A DNA stretch of 20,834 nt from the IMG/VR virus record IMGVR_UViG_3300009157_000050, positions 1 to 20,834 of that record. One strand, given 5' to 3'. The stretch is from a virus. Of the stretch, positions 1-20,767 are shown one piece after another. Under the pieces are notes generated by a model. The model saw only the letters and a program-made list of their open reading frames with translations. It did not search any database and was not told where the DNA came from. The position numbers and the translations under genes are program-made. Within the stretch, counting starts at the first letter, position 1. Each line of letters starts with the position of its first letter.

Positions 1-25
1 GTGTCCGCGCCTCCCAACGCTCCAT
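1..25 (-). CDS. Possible truncated start of a further early gene at the window edge
   Basis: An ATG at 25-23 opens eight codons (MERWEART) that run off the window. It follows the stop of the preceding early gene by 11 nt. No good ribosome binding site precedes it. A GGGAGG motif at 14-9 inside the stretch could instead be the Shine-Dalgarno of a gene starting just beyond the edge. If the two window ends are joined, the frame continues for 26 codons and stops at TAA near 20780. Weak call; either reading is possible. Confidence 0.2.
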
Positions 26-3581: not shown

Positions 3582-3710
3582 TCACCGCAGGACGTGCCCG
3601 GCGATCGTGCCGAGTGCGGCGCCGATGGTGCCGCCGACGACCGAGCCGGTCAGGACGGCCCACGCGACCCGGCAGGCGTGACGGGCGGTCTCAGCGGTCC
3701 GGGCGCTCAC
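3582..3710 (-). CDS. Putative 42-residue single-pass membrane protein
   Basis: A GTG at 3710, inside the end of the upstream gene, opens a 42-residue frame with a basic N-terminus (SARTAETARHACR). A hydrophobic, glycine-rich helix follows (AWAVLTGSVVGGTIGAALG, about residues 16-37) with GxxxG-like spacing that favours helix packing. It ends in GHVLR. No clear ribosome site is visible, so translation would rely on coupling. The same frame stays open upstream to an ATG at 3899, but that part is the shadow of the neighbouring gene. A holin-like or membrane-signalling role is conceivable; none is shown. Confidence 0.45.
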   Translation of the reverse strand: MSARTAETARHACRVAWAVLTGSVVGGTIGAALGTIAGHVLR

Positions 3711-11479: not shown

Positions 11480-11925
11480 CTAGTCCTCCGTCTCCGTCGC
11501 GTCGTGCAGCAGTTCCAGCACGGTGGCGATCTCGGCATCGTCGGCGCGGTCCCAGTAGTCGGGCGGGATCTGGGTCGCCAGTGCTAGCGCTACGCTCAAG
11601 CGGGCTCGGCTGCCCTCCGGGTAGGGTCCACCGTCTCGTCCTCGCCCTGGTCCTCGTCCTCGTCGTCTCCCTTGCTGATCTCCCAGGCCCGGTCGCAGAA
11701 CTCGTTGAAGTTGATCTTCGGGATCTTGTTGAGGCGGGTCAGGGCGTGCCAGGCGATATAGGTCTGGTAATACATCGGGCCGTCCTCCATGGACGGCCAC
11801 TCGCGGTGGCGGCCGCGCTCACGGTCGAAGGCGACCATGTCCACGTTGAGCGCGCGCACCCGGTGCTCGGTACCGTCGTCCATGACGACCCGCATCCACG
11901 GTGTGGTCAGTCTCGGTTCGGGCAT
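11480..11925 (-). CDS. Tail assembly chaperone, frameshifted long form (G-T type)
   Basis: The frame-0 gene at 11596-11925 is followed by an overlapping frame (open from 11800 to its stop at 11480) that lies in the -1 register and has no start site of its own. It ends in LSVALALATQIPPDYWDRAD and IATVLELLHDATETED, a sequence typical of the T domain in actinophage chaperones. A programmed -1 shift would fuse the two. The best slip site seen is C-AAG-GGA at 11674-11668 (re-paired as CAA-GGG), which is imperfect at the first base. A later slip would give an acidic instead of an Arg-rich linker. The gene sits between tail tube and tape measure, as in lambda gpG/gpGT. Confidence 0.7.
11596..11925 (-). 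CDS. Tail assembly chaperone, short form (G type)
   Basis: A 109-residue protein that starts at ATG 11925, directly after the stop of the gp10-like gene. It contains TPWMRVVMDDGTEHRVRALN and VDMVAFDRERGRHREWP, then YQTYIAWHALTRLNKIPKIN and FNEFCDRAWEI. This is the common layout of actinophage chaperones: a D-G-x-E-x-x-V strand pair, a D-x-x-x-F/W-E motif and a helical Y-x-A-W-x-A/H-L. It ends in an acidic tail (DDEDEDQGEDE). Chaperones of this type coat the tape measure while the tail tube polymerises and are absent from the mature tail. Position upstream of the tape measure supports the call. Confidence 0.82.
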   Translation of the reverse strand: MPEPRLTTPWMRVVMDDGTEHRVRALNVDMVAFDRERGRHREWPSMEDGPMYYQTYIAWHALTRLNKIPKINFNEFCDRAWEISKGDDEDEDQGEDETVDPTRRAAEPA

Positions 11926-15198: not shown

Positions 15199-15804
15199 TT
15201 ATGGGGTCAGGCTAGCGCGCCACTCCTTCCACTCGTCCACAGACCGGCGCGCCGCCATCCTGGGACGACGGTGCGCGACCTGGGTGACGTACGCGTCGGC
15301 GAAGTTGGGGGTAGGGGTCAGCGAGCACTCGACCAGCCGGGCCTCCTTGACCGTGCACCGGTCCAGCGTCGAGGCGTCGTCGGCGTTCCACTCCTCCTGG
15401 TCGGTGACCTGCCACTCCTGGAGCAGCGGCTGCCAACCGATGGACAGGCCGGTGAGCACGCCCTCGCGGGCCAGCCGCGCCGCGCGCTGCGCGTCCGGCG
15501 CGTCATCCAACGCCCACTCACCCCACAACCCGTCCGGGCGTGCGTCCCACTTGGTGGCCCGCCCGACCGGGAACGACTCGTAGTCGTGGAACAGCAACAG
15601 CGGCAGGTCCCGCGCCGCCTCCTTGACCGACTTGTCGAAGCAGGTCCGGGTGAACGACAGCTGGAACCAGCCACGTACGGCCCACGTGTCGAACGGCACG
15701 GCCCGCCCGATGATGGTGCGCAGGTTCTCGGTCGCGTCCACGTCGGTGACCTGGGCGGCCATCGGCGGTCCGCCACGTACCCGCTTGACCTGGATGCTCG
15801 TCAT
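15199..15804 (-). CDS. Prohead maturation protease (HK97/U35 family)
   Basis: A 201-residue serine protease. The characteristic sequence is GRAVPFDTWAVRGWFQLSFT with R-T-C-F-D-K-S-V, then LLLFHDYESFPVGRATKWD with the likely catalytic H73. TGLSIGWQPL carries the nucleophile S121. A third acidic residue is in VKEARLVECSLTPTPNFADA (E154 or E159). It cleaves the capsid delta domain after prohead assembly and probably itself. The ATG at 15804 overlaps the portal stop by 4 nt. Gene order portal-protease-capsid is the HK97 standard. Confidence 0.93.
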   Translation of the reverse strand: MTSIQVKRVRGGPPMAAQVTDVDATENLRTIIGRAVPFDTWAVRGWFQLSFTRTCFDKSVKEAARDLPLLLFHDYESFPVGRATKWDARPDGLWGEWALDDAPDAQRAARLAREGVLTGLSIGWQPLLQEWQVTDQEEWNADDASTLDRCTVKEARLVECSLTPTPNFADAYVTQVAHRRPRMAARRSVDEWKEWRASLTP

Positions 15805-17075
15805 GGGGTGACCTCCTCAGCGTCGACGACCTCAGTGTCGGTGGGTGCCAGCAGCGACGGCCCGGCCCCCGACGCCAGGCCCAGGTAGGTACGCGCCTCC
15901 TCCACCGTCAGGATCCCCGCGACCACCGCGGCCGCGAGCGTGTCAATGGTGGTGGCGAAGTCGTCGCGGGTGAACGCCAGCCGGTCGAACCGCACCCGCC
16001 TACCGCGCGGTAGCCACCGCCGTGACCACTCGTCCTCGAAGTCCTTGAGCACCGGCTCGAGGCTGAGGCGCAGCAGGTTGGAGAAGTTCGCGCCCGGGCT
16101 CTGGTAGGTCAGGGTCGCGTTCGGCGCACCCAGGTAGTAGCCGTCCAGGTTGGCCATGTTCGCCACGTCGAGCAGCGACAACCGCCGCGACTCGGTCAGC
16201 TGCGCGTCATCAGGTGACCAGCCCAGCGGGATGACCTGGGTACCGGCGGGCAGGAACGCGGGTCTGCGGCCCGGGCCGACGAACTTCTCCATCCATGACG
16301 TCTTCGCCTCGGCCGCCTCGTCCTCGCCCAGGTCGGGGTTGTTGGAGATCACCGCCACCGACGGGACCGCCGCGGTGGACAGGGTGCGGTGCTCGTAGGA
16401 CTCCTGCATCGCGACGCGTTCGAGGGACTTCAGGTGCTGCTCGACGATACCGATGCCCCGGAACGGGCAGGACCGGTCCGCGCCGCGGCGTACGTGCACG
16501 ACCCGGTCGACCTCGAGCTCGGTGCCGTCGACGAGGTACTGCACCCGGCCCGGGTTGGCCGGGTCCCAGCCGATCGACACCCAGGCGGCGGGTAGCCAGG
16601 TCGTCGCGGAGGGCCAGCCGAGCGAGTCGTAGGCGGTGATGTAGTTCAGGCCGTTGCCGTTGAGCAGGTAGTCCTCCACCTGCACGCCGACGAACCAGCC
16701 GGCCGGCGCGTTCGGGTCGGGCTGGTCCAACAGGCGCGGCCGCGGTTGCAGGACCGTACCGCGGTAGTCGTCCATCGGCATCTGCTTGAGCGAGCCGGTG
16801 TAGATGTTCACCGCCCGGGACAGGCCCGGGATCGCCATCGCCGACGGGGCGTCCCACACCAGCGGCGAGAGGTTGTCGGTGTCGACGTACTCGTGGGGGA
16901 ACAGGATCCGCGTCCACGGCTGGGTGGGTAGTGGCCCGGTCCGACCACCGCGTGAGGACCACGGCGTGAACAGCGACGCCGCCTGACGGACCATGGCGCC
17001 CGGGTCACTGGGAAGGCGCGCGACAGCCGAGCTGACCAGGTTACCCACCCGGGTCACAAGATCGGGCCGGACCAC
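15801..17075 (-). CDS. Portal protein (HK97 gp3 type)
   Basis: A 424-residue portal protein that forms the dodecameric DNA channel. Family features include PGLSRAVNIYTGSLKQMPMD, FVGVQVEDYLLNGNGLNYIT, VQYLVDGTELEVDRVVHVRR and PFRGIGIVEQHLKSLERVAM. The segment PAFLPAGTQVIPLGWSPDDA is followed by LTESRRLSLLDVANMANLDG and YYLGAPNATLTYQSPGANFS. The C-terminal helices (AAAVVAGILTVEEARTYLGL) are also typical. The GTG at 17075 lacks a ribosome site; further GTG codons at 17057 and later are possible, so the first residues are uncertain. Its stop overlaps the protease ATG by 4 nt. Confidence 0.92.
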   Translation of the reverse strand: MVRPDLVTRVGNLVSSAVARLPSDPGAMVRQAASLFTPWSSRGGRTGPLPTQPWTRILFPHEYVDTDNLSPLVWDAPSAMAIPGLSRAVNIYTGSLKQMPMDDYRGTVLQPRPRLLDQPDPNAPAGWFVGVQVEDYLLNGNGLNYITAYDSLGWPSATTWLPAAWVSIGWDPANPGRVQYLVDGTELEVDRVVHVRRGADRSCPFRGIGIVEQHLKSLERVAMQESYEHRTLSTAAVPSVAVISNNPDLGEDEAAEAKTSWMEKFVGPGRRPAFLPAGTQVIPLGWSPDDAQLTESRRLSLLDVANMANLDGYYLGAPNATLTYQSPGANFSNLLRLSLEPVLKDFEDEWSRRWLPRGRRVRFDRLAFTRDDFATTIDTLAAAVVAGILTVEEARTYLGLASGAGPSLLAPTDTEVVDAEEVTP

Positions 17076-17269: not shown

Positions 17270-17270
17270 T
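17204..17270. repeat. 12-bp perfect inverted repeat with nested hairpin at the terminase stop
   Basis: AGCAGCGGCGGC at 17204-17215 pairs perfectly with GCCGCCGCTGCT at 17259-17270. Inside the 43-nt interval, CACCCG (17227-17232) pairs with CGGGTG (17246-17251). The outer arm ends in the last base of the terminase stop codon. On the minus strand this is a large stem-loop directly after the terminase gene. It could reduce read-through into portal or protect the mRNA end; there is no T tract. Confidence 0.75.
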
Positions 17271-18724
17271 TACCGCACGACGAACCGCACAGGTGGCGGC
17301 GGGGCGTGGTCCCATCCCCACAGTGCGAGGGTCGCGGCGACCAGCCCGGCGATCGAGTCCGATGAGGCGCGCCGGCCCCAGACCCACCGTTCGCCCACTG
17401 TCCGTTTCACGGCCGCGGCGGCGGCGGCGTCCAGAGCGGGATGGGGGCGGATGCCGATCTGGCCTTCCACGATTGCGTTCAGCATGGTCGGGCAGGCAAC
17501 CGTGTACTCGTCGATCGTGATGGGACGCAGGCTGAGGCGGGCACGGATAGCCGCGTCGCCGACGTCGACGGCTGGGCCGAACCGGTCGTAGACCAGCAAC
17601 CTCGGCCGCAGCTTCGCGACCAGTTCCCTCAACCGGGGCACCAACCAGCTGGTGCCCTCCCGCACGTCGACCAGTTCGACATGAACGCGGCCGGCGCTGT
17701 CGCGCCAGGCTATGCAGATCGCGGCGTCGCGCCCGCCCAGGCCGACGTCGAATGCGAGCGCCATCCCGCCGGGTGCGGGCAGCTCGGTCAGTGTGTCCTC
17801 GGTGTTGGCCCACAACAGGGCGGGGATGACCCGCTCGGGCGCGCCGGTCCACCGGTTGCCGTAGGCGCGGGCGAACTCCCCCGGCTTCATGATCTTGGCA
17901 GCTTTGGGGATCGCCTCGGGGCGCAGGGTGTACCGGTTGGCGGGGTGGGCGGCGGCGACCGCGGCGAGGTCGGTCGGGTCGGTCTTGTCGTCGATGCCGT
18001 ACTCGATGTAGCAGATCCCGGAACGCACGCCGGCGTCGACGCTCGCGCGGCCGGCGTCGCGCAGCGCGGCGAGCCAGGTCGAGCCGGCGTGCCCGGCCGC
18101 GGAGATGACCCACATCTGCCCGGCGACGGTGGCAAAGGTCGGCAGGATCGCCTGGGTGAGCTCGTCCCCGCGGACCTCGTCGAACGCCCAGCCCTCGTCG
18201 ACGCAGACGAAAATGTTCGCCTTGCCGTGCAGGGCGTCCGGGACGGGCGCGAACACCCGGTACGTCGAGCCGTTCGGGAACGTGACCGTCTCGCTGCCGT
18301 TGGACTCGCGGACCTTGCACACCGGTTTGCGCAGCGCCGAGCGGCCGATGCGTTTGACGACCTGCATCCAGTTGTCTCGGGCGTCCTCACGCTTCTGCGC
18401 GGTGTACCAGGCGCCGACGTCCGGGCTGGTCAGACAGCGCTGCGAGGCGGTCGACCCGACCAGCGCGGTCTTGCCGGCCTGGCGCTGCACGATGAGGACG
18501 ACCAGGTCGTACGCCCACTCGCCGGTGACCGGGTCGACCTCGCCGGCCACGTCGGAGGCGGCGACCTGCCACGGCATGAACGGCCAGGACAGCACCGCGC
18601 CGAGCCGGGCGACCTGCGGGCCGTAGGTGGCCCGGTCAGGACTGCGCGGTGTCGCCCACCGTGGGCTGACCGGGGTCGGGCCGGGCGAGGCTGGCGATGA
18701 GGTTGGCGAGGCTGTCACGGTCAC
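17270..18724 (-). CDS. terL: Terminase large subunit
   Basis: A 484-residue packaging ATPase/nuclease. The N-terminal motif PRWATPRSPDRATYGPQVA...MPWQ is typical of actinophage large terminases. The ATPase shows Walker A VQRQAGKT (K85) and Walker B IFVCVDEGW (D176, E177). The nuclease of RNase H fold shows AFDVGLGGRDAA (D326), LLVYDRFG (D380) and SSDSIAGLVAA (D456). It pumps DNA into the prohead through the portal and cuts it. The GTG at 18724 (or 18718) is required to include the conserved N-terminal motif, giving an 89-nt overlap with the small subunit gene. Its stop lies at the base of a large hairpin. Confidence 0.95.
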   Translation of the reverse strand: MTVTASPTSSPASPGPTPVSPRWATPRSPDRATYGPQVARLGAVLSWPFMPWQVAASDVAGEVDPVTGEWAYDLVVLIVQRQAGKTALVGSTASQRCLTSPDVGAWYTAQKREDARDNWMQVVKRIGRSALRKPVCKVRESNGSETVTFPNGSTYRVFAPVPDALHGKANIFVCVDEGWAFDEVRGDELTQAILPTFATVAGQMWVISAAGHAGSTWLAALRDAGRASVDAGVRSGICYIEYGIDDKTDPTDLAAVAAAHPANRYTLRPEAIPKAAKIMKPGEFARAYGNRWTGAPERVIPALLWANTEDTLTELPAPGGMALAFDVGLGGRDAAICIAWRDSAGRVHVELVDVREGTSWLVPRLRELVAKLRPRLLVYDRFGPAVDVGDAAIRARLSLRPITIDEYTVACPTMLNAIVEGQIGIRPHPALDAAAAAAVKRTVGERWVWGRRASSDSIAGLVAATLALWGWDHAPPPPVRFVVR

Positions 18725-18998
18725 CGCCCCGCGACGACGGGTCCAGCCGCAACCGGGCCAGCGTCGAGGCGAGCTCGCCGGCGAGCCGGGCCACCGCCCA
18801 CTTGTCCTGCTCGCCGGCGGCCTGGTCCAGGGCCCGACCTACCGTACGGGCCACCGCGACCAGGCCGCCGTCGACGTCGGCCAGGGCCTTGTCGCGTTTC
18901 GCGGCCGCCACCGCCCGGTCGACCGCCACCTCCACCCGGCCCTTGACGGCCCGGCGGGTACGGAACAGCGGCGGCTGGTCGCCCGAGCGGCGGCCCAT
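18636..18998 (-). CDS. Putative terminase small subunit
   Basis: A 120-residue protein directly upstream of the large terminase. It is helical with MGRRSGDQPPLFRTRRAVKG, VEVAVDRAVAAAKRDKALAD, VDGGLVAVARTVGRALDQAA and EQDKWAVARLAGELASTLAR, then LRLDPSSRGG. This layout (G-R-R, basic helix, A-x-x-R-x-x-G/A-x-x-L-D, D-x-x-A-V/L-A-R-L-x-x-E-L, L-x-L-x-P) is common in small terminases of actinophages and prophages that lack the P27 type. It would recognise the packaging site. The ATG at 18998 follows the peptidase stop (TAG) directly. The C-terminal 30 residues are also coded in another frame by terminase. The call rests mostly on position. Confidence 0.7.
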   Translation of the reverse strand: MGRRSGDQPPLFRTRRAVKGRVEVAVDRAVAAAKRDKALADVDGGLVAVARTVGRALDQAAGEQDKWAVARLAGELASTLARLRLDPSSRGGDRDSLANLIASLARPDPGQPTVGDTAQS

Positions 18999-19811
18999 CT
19001 AGGTCAGCAGCACCGCGACTAGCGTCGCGATACCGAGCACCGTACCCAGCGCCGCGATCACGACCAGCCACGTGGCCAGGCGGTGGACCCGCTCGGTGAG
19101 CAGGTCCAGGTCCAGGCGCTGGTAGCCCAGGTCCGTCGCGGTCGCCGTCATGTGGTTCACGACCATCGGCGCGAACTCGTTGGCCAGGTAGTCGGTGCGT
19201 TGGAACACCGTCCATGACGCACCACCAGCGGAGTACCGGTTGCCGGACGGGTCGATGTCGTAGCCCCATACGTCCTCTGCGGACACCTCACCACTCCATT
19301 CTTCGACGGTCTCGCCCCGCAAGACGGACAGCAGGGCGTGCTTGTTGTCCTGGCTGGTGGACTGGTCACGGTTCTCCGAGAAGTGCAGGTGCCACAGGTG
19401 GCTGGAGTCCGAGGACGCCGCGTGACCGTAGCGGCAGTCCCAGCCCTCCACGTGACTGTCGGTGTCGGCCTGGCCGTAGAACTCCCGCCACCCGTTCAGG
19501 CGCGGGTCGTCCATGTCCTGCGCCGAGGACAGCAGCCGTTTCGTGTACCTGGAGATCCGGCTGTAGTCACCGGACTGGGCCTCCGGGAACGTCCAGTCCA
19601 GGCCGCACGCCTTGTCGCCCAGACCCTCCTGGTCGGGCGGGTCGTCGCAGACCGAGTAGTCGTGGGACGGCAGGTTGTGCCGGGCGTTGTGGTAGCCGGG
19701 CTTGTTCGCGTAGATGCCACCCAGCACGGAGCTGGGCTCCATCGCCTGCAACGACTCCCACAGCCGCCACATGGCGTCGGTGACCCGACTGGGGTTGGGG
19801 TTCGTGGCCAC
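18999..19811 (-). CDS. LAS/M15-like metallopeptidase with C-terminal membrane anchor (candidate endolysin)
   Basis: A 270-residue protein. Residues 30-160 carry the signature GIYANKPGYHNARHNLPSHD (H41, H45, H50), then CGLDWTFPEAQ (D72), DPRLNGWREFYGQAD, HVEGWDCRYG and SSHLWHLHFSENRD (H138, H141, H143). The H...D...W-H-x-H arrangement resembles LAS-fold peptidases (M15 D-Ala-D-Ala family) that cleave cell-wall peptides. The spacing differs from classical members, so the enzyme activity is inferred. Residues 160-240 are a linker or second domain, and 246-269 form one hydrophobic helix (ATWLVVIAALGTVLGIATLV). No signal peptide is present. A lysis role with membrane anchoring is likely because no other lysin is visible. 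Gap to the upstream gene is 3 nt. Confidence 0.72.
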   Translation of the reverse strand: MATNPNPSRVTDAMWRLWESLQAMEPSSVLGGIYANKPGYHNARHNLPSHDYSVCDDPPDQEGLGDKACGLDWTFPEAQSGDYSRISRYTKRLLSSAQDMDDPRLNGWREFYGQADTDSHVEGWDCRYGHAASSDSSHLWHLHFSENRDQSTSQDNKHALLSVLRGETVEEWSGEVSAEDVWGYDIDPSGNRYSAGGASWTVFQRTDYLANEFAPMVVNHMTATATDLGYQRLDLDLLTERVHRLATWLVVIAALGTVLGIATLVAVLLT

Positions 19812-19814
19812 GGC

Positions 19815-20036
19815 TCAGGCGCCCTCGGCGCAGTCGTCGAACTCGAACCGTGTGGACCCGTTGTGACCGTGCACGGCGGCCGCGTCCATGAACGTGTCCC
19901 ACACGACCGTGCTGCACCGGCTGCCCTGCCAGCGGACCACCGTCGTCCCGTCGTCGAAGATCACACCCCGGGCCACGACACCGGTCCCGCTGTAGCCGGT
20001 CGGGTCCGCGTCGCGGTGCATCGTGAACGTCCTCAC
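19815..20036 (-). CDS. Small conserved actinophage protein
   Basis: A 73-residue protein with a GTG start at 20036 that overlaps the upstream stop by 4 nt (GTGA). The sequence is FTMHRDADPTGYSGTGVVAR, then GVIFDDGTTVVRWQGSRCST, VVWDTFMDAAAVHGHNGSTR and FEFDD. The pattern (F-x-x-x-R-x-x-D-x-T-G-x-S-G-T-G-V-V-A-x-G-V-x-F-x-D-G-T-x-V-V-R-W, S-T-x-V-W-D, V-H-G-H-x-G-x-T) belongs to a small beta-rich protein family frequent in actinobacterial phages and prophages. Its role is unknown. Longer frames upstream are shadows of the neighbouring gene. Confidence 0.8.
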   Translation of the reverse strand: MRTFTMHRDADPTGYSGTGVVARGVIFDDGTTVVRWQGSRCSTVVWDTFMDAAAVHGHNGSTRFEFDDCAEGA

Positions 20037-20251: not shown

Positions 20252-20507
20252 CCTCGTCCTCCTCCTGCGCATCGGTACAGGCCGCGTGGACCGGGATGGC
20301 AGACGCCGCCCACGGGCCGAAGTGGTAGTCGCTGGACTGACGCACATGCCCGGGCCAACGGCCCACGTACACCAGCGCCACCCGACCCTCGCCCAACGTG
20401 CTCTCACACACCGGGCACCGGTAGTCGGCAAGCTCGTCCAGCGGCCCGACGACCAGGTACGCCGCCACATGCGCCCGTACCCTCGGCGCCACCCACACCG
20501 GGATCAC
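20235..20507 (-). CDS. Small zinc-binding-type protein
   Basis: A 90-residue protein starting at GTG 20507 in a 4-nt overlap (GTGA) with the upstream DUF3263-like gene. It contains PLDELADYRCPVCESTLGEG (CxxC), then RVALVYVGRWPGHVRQSSDY and IPVHAACTDAQEEDEDV (HxxC), together a likely single zinc site, and an acidic C-terminus. Similar C-x-x-C ... V-A-L-V/A-Y ... H-x-x-C proteins occur in actinophages near the terminase or early region. Role unknown. The longer frame from 20696 is the shadow of the upstream gene. Confidence 0.72.
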   Translation of the reverse strand: MIPVWVAPRVRAHVAAYLVVGPLDELADYRCPVCESTLGEGRVALVYVGRWPGHVRQSSDYHFGPWAASAIPVHAACTDAQEEDEDVPRV

Positions 20508-20737
20508 GGCCGCAACCTCCACTGCCCGAACCGGCCCGCCTGCCGGACACGACGCAGCCGACCCACCAACAGCGGCGACGACGCGAGCGCCGCCGGCTCG
20601 TCCAGCAGCCGGTTCAGCCGACGGAAGTACGCCACCGGCGTCCAACCGAACTGGTCGGCGATCGCCTGGTCCTGCATACCCGCACGACGCCACCACGACG
20701 CCGCGAACGCCAGCACCCGCACATCCGTTTCATCCAA
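20504..20737 (-). CDS. DUF3263-like small helical protein, first gene of the late operon
   Basis: A 77-residue helical protein. The sequence is LDETDVRVLAFAASWWRRAG, then MQDQAIADQFGWTPVAYFRR, LNRLLDEPAALASSPLLVGR and LRRVRQAGR. It matches the DUF3263 pattern of actinobacteria (I-L-x-F-E-x-x-W-W, K-E-x-A-I-R-x-x-F-x-x-S-x-x-R-Y-Y-x-x-L-N-x-L-L-D-x-P-x-A-L, P-L-L-V-x-R-L-R-R-x-R). The domain is HTH-like and may bind DNA. The TTG at 20737 is chosen because AAGGGAG lies 8 nt upstream and the family N-terminus starts there; a TTG at 20755 would precede this site. A palindrome and possible promoter lie just upstream. Confidence 0.82.
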   Translation of the reverse strand: MDETDVRVLAFAASWWRRAGMQDQAIADQFGWTPVAYFRRLNRLLDEPAALASSPLLVGRLRRVRQAGRFGQWRLRP

Positions 20738-20751
20738 AGTAGACACTCCCT

Positions 20752-20767
20752 TCAATTATATAATTGA
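20752..20767. promoter_or_regulatory. 16-bp perfect AT-rich palindrome upstream of the late operon
   Basis: TCAATTATATAATTGA is its own reverse complement and almost pure AT in a GC-rich genome. On the minus strand it contains a perfect TATAAT (20760-20755), and its 3' end joins the AAGGGAG ribosome site of the first late gene. It could be a promoter core, an operator for a dimeric regulator, or both. No convincing -35 box lies 16-18 bp upstream. Confidence 0.7.

Follow-up and report, generated by a model that had tools for sequence, protein, structure and literature searches.

The window (the whole stretch of DNA analyzed here, 20,834 nucleotides) encodes, in order, an endolysin-like protein, the terminase subunits TerS and TerL, a portal, an S78-type protease, a capsid protein, tail genes and an integrase (Table 1). 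The stop codon of the lysin gene directly abuts the TerS start at 18998, and the gene on its other side, for a 68-residue protein, has counterparts of 69-75 residues beside the lysin in the related phage L005 and at other positions in L008 and L011. The lysin consists of an N-terminal LAS-like domain, a linker and a C-terminal membrane helix, and contains the motif D135-SS-H138-LW-H141-L-H143. Because a TGA lies in frame two codons 5' of the GTG start, neither a signal nor a helix can be added at the N-terminus of the protein, whose 270 residues include no signal peptide, unlike the secreted host forms described below. A hidden N-terminal helix, of the kind carried by the lysins of relatives L118-L120, is ruled out by the same stop. 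These results confirm an initial sequence-only reading of this DNA, which had described a peptidase-like protein with a C-terminal helix and no signal peptide, encoded before the terminase. Counterparts in L005 (68% identity) and L006 (58% identity), in which the membrane helix is kept with a differing sequence, indicate that the open reading frame is a real gene.

Table 1. Positions of the features discussed, in the window unless a related locus (L) is named.
Feature	Position	Strand	Remarks
Endolysin-like protein gene	18999..19811	(-)	270 aa, GTG start
Putative catalytic domain	19296..19811	(-)	residues 1-172
C-terminal membrane helix	18999..19080	(-)	about residues 245-270
Terminase small subunit, TerS	18636..18998	(-)	phrog_15169, 2e-17
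Terminase large subunit, TerL	17270..18724	(-)	phrog_9, 9.4e-51
Portal	15801..17075	(-)	4-base overlap with protease gene
68-aa gene	19815..20021	(-)	phrog_7499; directly upstream of lysin
Weak one-helix ORF	3582..3710	(-)	42 aa, hydropathy 1.65; early region
Contig end, probable cos end	1..24	(.)	shared with G002
Other contig end	20811..20834	(.)	TGTC...CTCTCCC-type site
LPxTG-type gene	L011:9568-9828
LPxTG-type gene	L116:1557-1781
LPxTG-type gene	L119:3133-3354
LPxTG-type gene	L120:384-626
LPxTG-type gene	L121:9655-9870
LPxTG-type gene	L123:9654-9827
LPxTG-type gene	L125:6-146

We then compared the window with related contigs. G002, the contig that carries L006 (21.3 kb, collinear genes, ~70% DNA identity), begins exactly where the window does, with the first 11 bases identical (GTGTCCGCGCC), and the window, G002, L007, L117 and L120 end within a few bases of one another at the same type of site. 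Independent contigs ending at one place point to physical genome ends, and the window, at 20.8 kb, probably represents an entire genome with cos ends. It encodes an integrase and a tape measure, and the phage is apparently temperate; its host probably belongs to the Micromonosporaceae. The shared termini of the related phages also mark a probable cos site adjoining their lysis and terminase genes. Among the window products scanned against the libraries, no other lysin was recognized, and no clear separate holin was seen in the genome, in agreement with the sequence-only reading. Given the shared contig ends, a second lysin or a separate holin-endolysin cassette outside the window is unlikely, and the lysin described here is therefore the only recognizable one. 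The overlap of the portal and protease genes excludes lysin genes between them of the kind seen in phages RRH1 and Emperor. Elsewhere in the window, an 83-residue protein at the genome end (20504-20755) resembles the mycobacterial nucleoid protein NapA (NF053843, 7.9e-18, under the curated cutoff), and a pair of short frames that overlap ahead of the tape measure (11480-11599 and 11596-11925) possibly encodes a frameshifted tail assembly chaperone.

Alignment of 61 sequences of the family showed H41, Y52, D72, E110, D135, H138, W140, H141 and H143 to be invariant; the genome loci among them were found by a pattern fixing residues ~135-143, so that the other rows alone are unbiased for those positions, while H41, Y52, D72 and E110 lie outside the pattern. 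The invariant residues include the HxH motif and the His and Asp ligands of LAS metallopeptidases (H41, D72, H141 and H143), which bears out the earlier proposal of a wall-peptidase-like enzyme. The conserved upstream histidine is H41, separated from D72 by 31 residues because of an inserted segment that holds the invariant Y52 and replaces the short H-x6-D spacing of VldE and M15 enzymes, which does not occur in the window family. H50 (in 'SHDYS') is present in only 3 of the 61 sequences, and we rejected it as a metal ligand. C55 and C69, which the sequence-only reading had linked to a possible activation by redox or metal change, are not conserved either (C69 occurs in a single sequence), and we therefore discarded this idea. 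The N-terminal domain is likely a zinc peptidase, with H41, D72 and H143 as the likely zinc ligands and H141 and H138 as the likely catalytic histidines.

Library searches did not name the domain. The window protein gave no match in Pfam, NCBIfam, PHROG or PDB sequences, including the M15 models of Pfam and NCBIfam; its single-sequence search of the PDB returned chance matches only, a full-length profile matched only through its peptidoglycan-binding part, and a catalytic-domain profile found nothing significant. Catalytic domains of ten relatives scanned alone likewise found nothing significant in Pfam or PHROGs, indicating a domain family that has no model in those libraries. AlphaFold2, given an alignment of 26 sequences from which pMLP1 was left out, predicted residues 1-172 with a pLDDT of 95.5 and a pTM of 0.91. 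The best PDB fold match of this model, and the only LAS structure among the PDB matches listed, was the catalytic domain of VldE, a weak match (probability 0.84, E 0.06, TM 0.57 by target). Among viral models, the closest was an uncharacterized phage protein (E 5.7e-10, TM 0.75), followed by peptidoglycan-binding-like and ARB-07466-like proteins (E 8.5e-4 for an ARB-07466-like one) and a Gordonia tape-measure protein (8e-3). Profile alignment by hhalign against MT3 domains scored no better than a reversed control (P 0.43 versus 0.39), leaving membership of the MT3 family unsupported by sequence. The weak PDB match and the missing sequence-profile link to MT3-type domains count against reading this protein as an endolysin.

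Relatives of the lysin provide its functional context. Alignment searches of IMG/VR found 30 and 44 loci (11 in common, about 60 in all), and bacterial genomes contributed 36 loci, mostly from Micromonosporaceae, with a few from Glycomycetaceae and one from Lentzea; among 50,697 records of cultured phages, only Micromonospora pMLP1 has a relative. PG_binding_1 is present in nine of 26 relatives (best 1.8e-27) and LysM in L061 (9.5e-19); the window protein itself has neither. Most phage relatives are encoded after minor tail genes and adjoin small one- or two-helix proteins: an r1t holin adjoins the lysin of L018 (PF16945, 3e-30) and lies near that of L031 (2.4e-9), and a two-helix protein (phrog_4316) lies directly upstream of the lysin in L006 (E 3e-4), beside that lysin's own helix, and adjoins the lysin in L122 (3.9e-19). 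In seven related phages, we also observed that the gene immediately upstream of the lysin encodes a small protein, mostly rich in Pro, Ser and Thr, that combines an LPxTG-type sorting motif (LPTTG, LPVTG, LPITG or LPKTG; Table 1) with a membrane helix and a basic tail. It looks unusual for a phage to encode a sortase-type anchor within a lysis region.

A group of chromosomal relatives from Micromonosporaceae, together with the one sequence from Lentzea, has signal peptides or upstream reading room for them, most clearly in L046, where a classical signal peptide precedes the same NPNP start; in such relatives, the signal peptide places the substrate outside the cell. Some chromosomal relatives end in FG-GAP or other repeat domains. 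In one secreted relative (L055:3968-5452), the C-terminal half resembles the repeat part of the fusidic acid esterase FusH (5.4e-48, far under the curated cutoff). The apparently secreted chromosomal copies (L044-L052 and L054-L056, from Micromonospora, Salinispora, Actinoplanes, Phytohabitans, Plantactinospora, Asanoa and Lentzea) are candidate uncharacterized wall hydrolases.

Together, the wall-binding domains, the secreted forms and the holin neighbors argue for a family of endolysins whose cellular relatives are secreted, and we conclude, at a probability of roughly 0.8, that the product of 18999-19811 is the endolysin of a small actinobacterial phage. We give only a small chance to the alternative that the domain has a function other than that of a peptidase and that the motif resemblance is coincidental: the lack of any Pfam, NCBIfam, PHROG or PDB sequence match and the weakness of the PDB fold match would fit it, but fusions to PG_binding_1 and LysM, secreted homologues, neighboring holins and the strict conservation of the H/D/HxxHxH residues all speak against it. 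A very small chance remains for a factor of entry or superinfection that travels in the virion or works from the membrane, a role that had been raised at the outset. Some relatives do lie among tail genes (L003/L021 and L029), and a broadly similar fold is predicted for the MT3 domain of tape-measure proteins, which helps phages to infect stationary cells (PMC1796659). However, the window gene stands at the terminase end, distant from the tail genes, many relatives carry wall-binding domains, and most adjoin membrane proteins or holins, a placement in lysis cassettes that makes such a role unlikely.

If the protein is an endolysin, its C-terminal helix may bear on how lysis proceeds. The AlphaFold helix spans residues 232-269, and the hydrophobic segment from residue 249 has a mean hydropathy of 2.64 over 19 residues, making it the strongest hydrophobic segment of the late strand, tape measure excepted. 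Hydrophobicity rather than sequence is conserved in the helices of L005, L006 and L115, and C-terminal helices were seen in the window, L005, L006/L007, L115/L117, L011, L116, L121 and L123. L008, close by in the tree, has a lysin without a helix. In L118-L120, which the tree places among the helix-bearing forms with modest support, the helix of the lysin is N-terminal, and a distinct 52-residue one-helix ORF lies between the lysin and the terminase genes, filling the place that the fused helix occupies in the window. In the window lysin, positive charges precede the helix, with Arg on its N-terminal side, and almost no tail lies beyond it. By the positive-inside rule, the charges predict a cytoplasmic catalytic domain in both the fused and the split designs.

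Among the membrane proteins of this genome, the window lysin is probably the only clear candidate for a role in lysis; the weak 42-residue ORF in the early region is the only other small one. We propose that the enzyme, having no signal peptide, would be synthesized in the cytoplasm and that its C-terminal helix would insert as a tail anchor; its catalytic domain would then face the cytoplasm, reversing the arrangement of a SAR endolysin. Cutting of the wall would have to await a breach of the membrane, made either by another, unrecognized protein or, speculatively, by a build-up of the anchor in the membrane. Within the endolysin reading, the chance that the helix merely holds the lysin at the membrane, while the 42-residue ORF or an unrecognized phage protein opens it, falls just short of even. 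Such docking would account for the two-helix protein that L006 has in addition to its lysin helix, and for the helix-free lysin of L008; on the other hand, a comparable holin is missing from the window, apparently a complete genome, and the lysin helix exceeds all other late-strand segments outside the tape measure in hydrophobicity.

That the C-terminal helix is instead a holin fused to the lysin, a one-gene lysis device as the sequence-only reading had envisaged, is plausible but less likely than not. The idea gained weight because some relatives have a lysin with a C-terminal helix of its own and others, such as L118-L120, a separate one-helix ORF after the lysin, and because the window encodes no clear holin, but the anchor as a holin is speculative, and the extra two-helix protein of L006 counts against it, since with that protein upstream the helix need not be a holin. 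In the boldest form of this reading, which is likewise less likely than not, a lone tail-anchored endolysin whose helix serves as holin, in the reverse of the SAR orientation, would lyse the Gram-positive host of a complete dsDNA phage, and gene fusion or fission would link the fused form to phages with a one-helix gene after the lysin. A search of the open literature for tail-anchored or C-terminally anchored endolysins returned none of relevance, which does not prove their absence.

The endolysin reading names a probable lysis enzyme for a group of phages almost absent from culture collections, where pMLP1 is the one match, and links a phage lysin to secreted wall enzymes of Micromonosporaceae. 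As the catalytic domain is unmatched in Pfam, NCBIfam and PHROGs, many lysins and host enzymes of this kind probably go under the label of hypothetical protein. Were it true that the tail opens the membrane, this tailed phage of a Gram-positive host would be a clear exception in lacking a separate holin.

SAR endolysins carry their own membrane helix at the N-terminus, with the catalytic domain outside. The window lysin also has its own membrane helix, but at the C-terminus, and its charges predict an enzyme inside rather than outside (for a SAR example, see PMC7312051). VldE (Spr1875), an L,D-endopeptidase of S. pneumoniae with an MT3 domain (PDB 9flj and 9fln), uses H301, D308 and H375 and has the motif H370-x-D372-H373-x-H375 (PMC11667670). 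Its LAS fold is the top, though weak, match of the window domain among solved structures, and it shares with the window lysin the H-x-x-H-x-H metal motif (H370, H373 and H375 versus H138, H141 and H143) and putative His and Asp ligands upstream of that motif, but it is a cellular rather than a phage enzyme and is predicted to carry LysM, its first His and Asp are spaced by 7 residues (H301-D308) rather than 31, and PDB sequence searches with the window lysin missed it. The MT3 motif of the mycobacteriophage TM4 tape measure (PMC1796659) likewise has HxxHxH, an Ala-x-Asp before a strand, WR-[QE] and the same order of elements, although it is part of a tape measure and not a separate lysis gene. 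Actinophage M15-type L-Ala-D-Glu endolysins (PMC9671378, PMC3314691) are LAS-type peptidases serving as lysins, as is proposed for the window protein, but the window lysin has neither an M15 Pfam match nor the classical H-x6-D. Emperor and RRH1, small phages of Gordonia and Rhodococcus, resemble the window phage in terminase (~40% identity), comparably small genome and gene order, but their lysins, annotated otherwise, lie between the portal and the capsid protease, in contrast to the LAS-like lysin before TerS in the window. For this position, phage D29 provides a precedent: immediately ahead of its terminase lie lysin A, the holin and lysin B.
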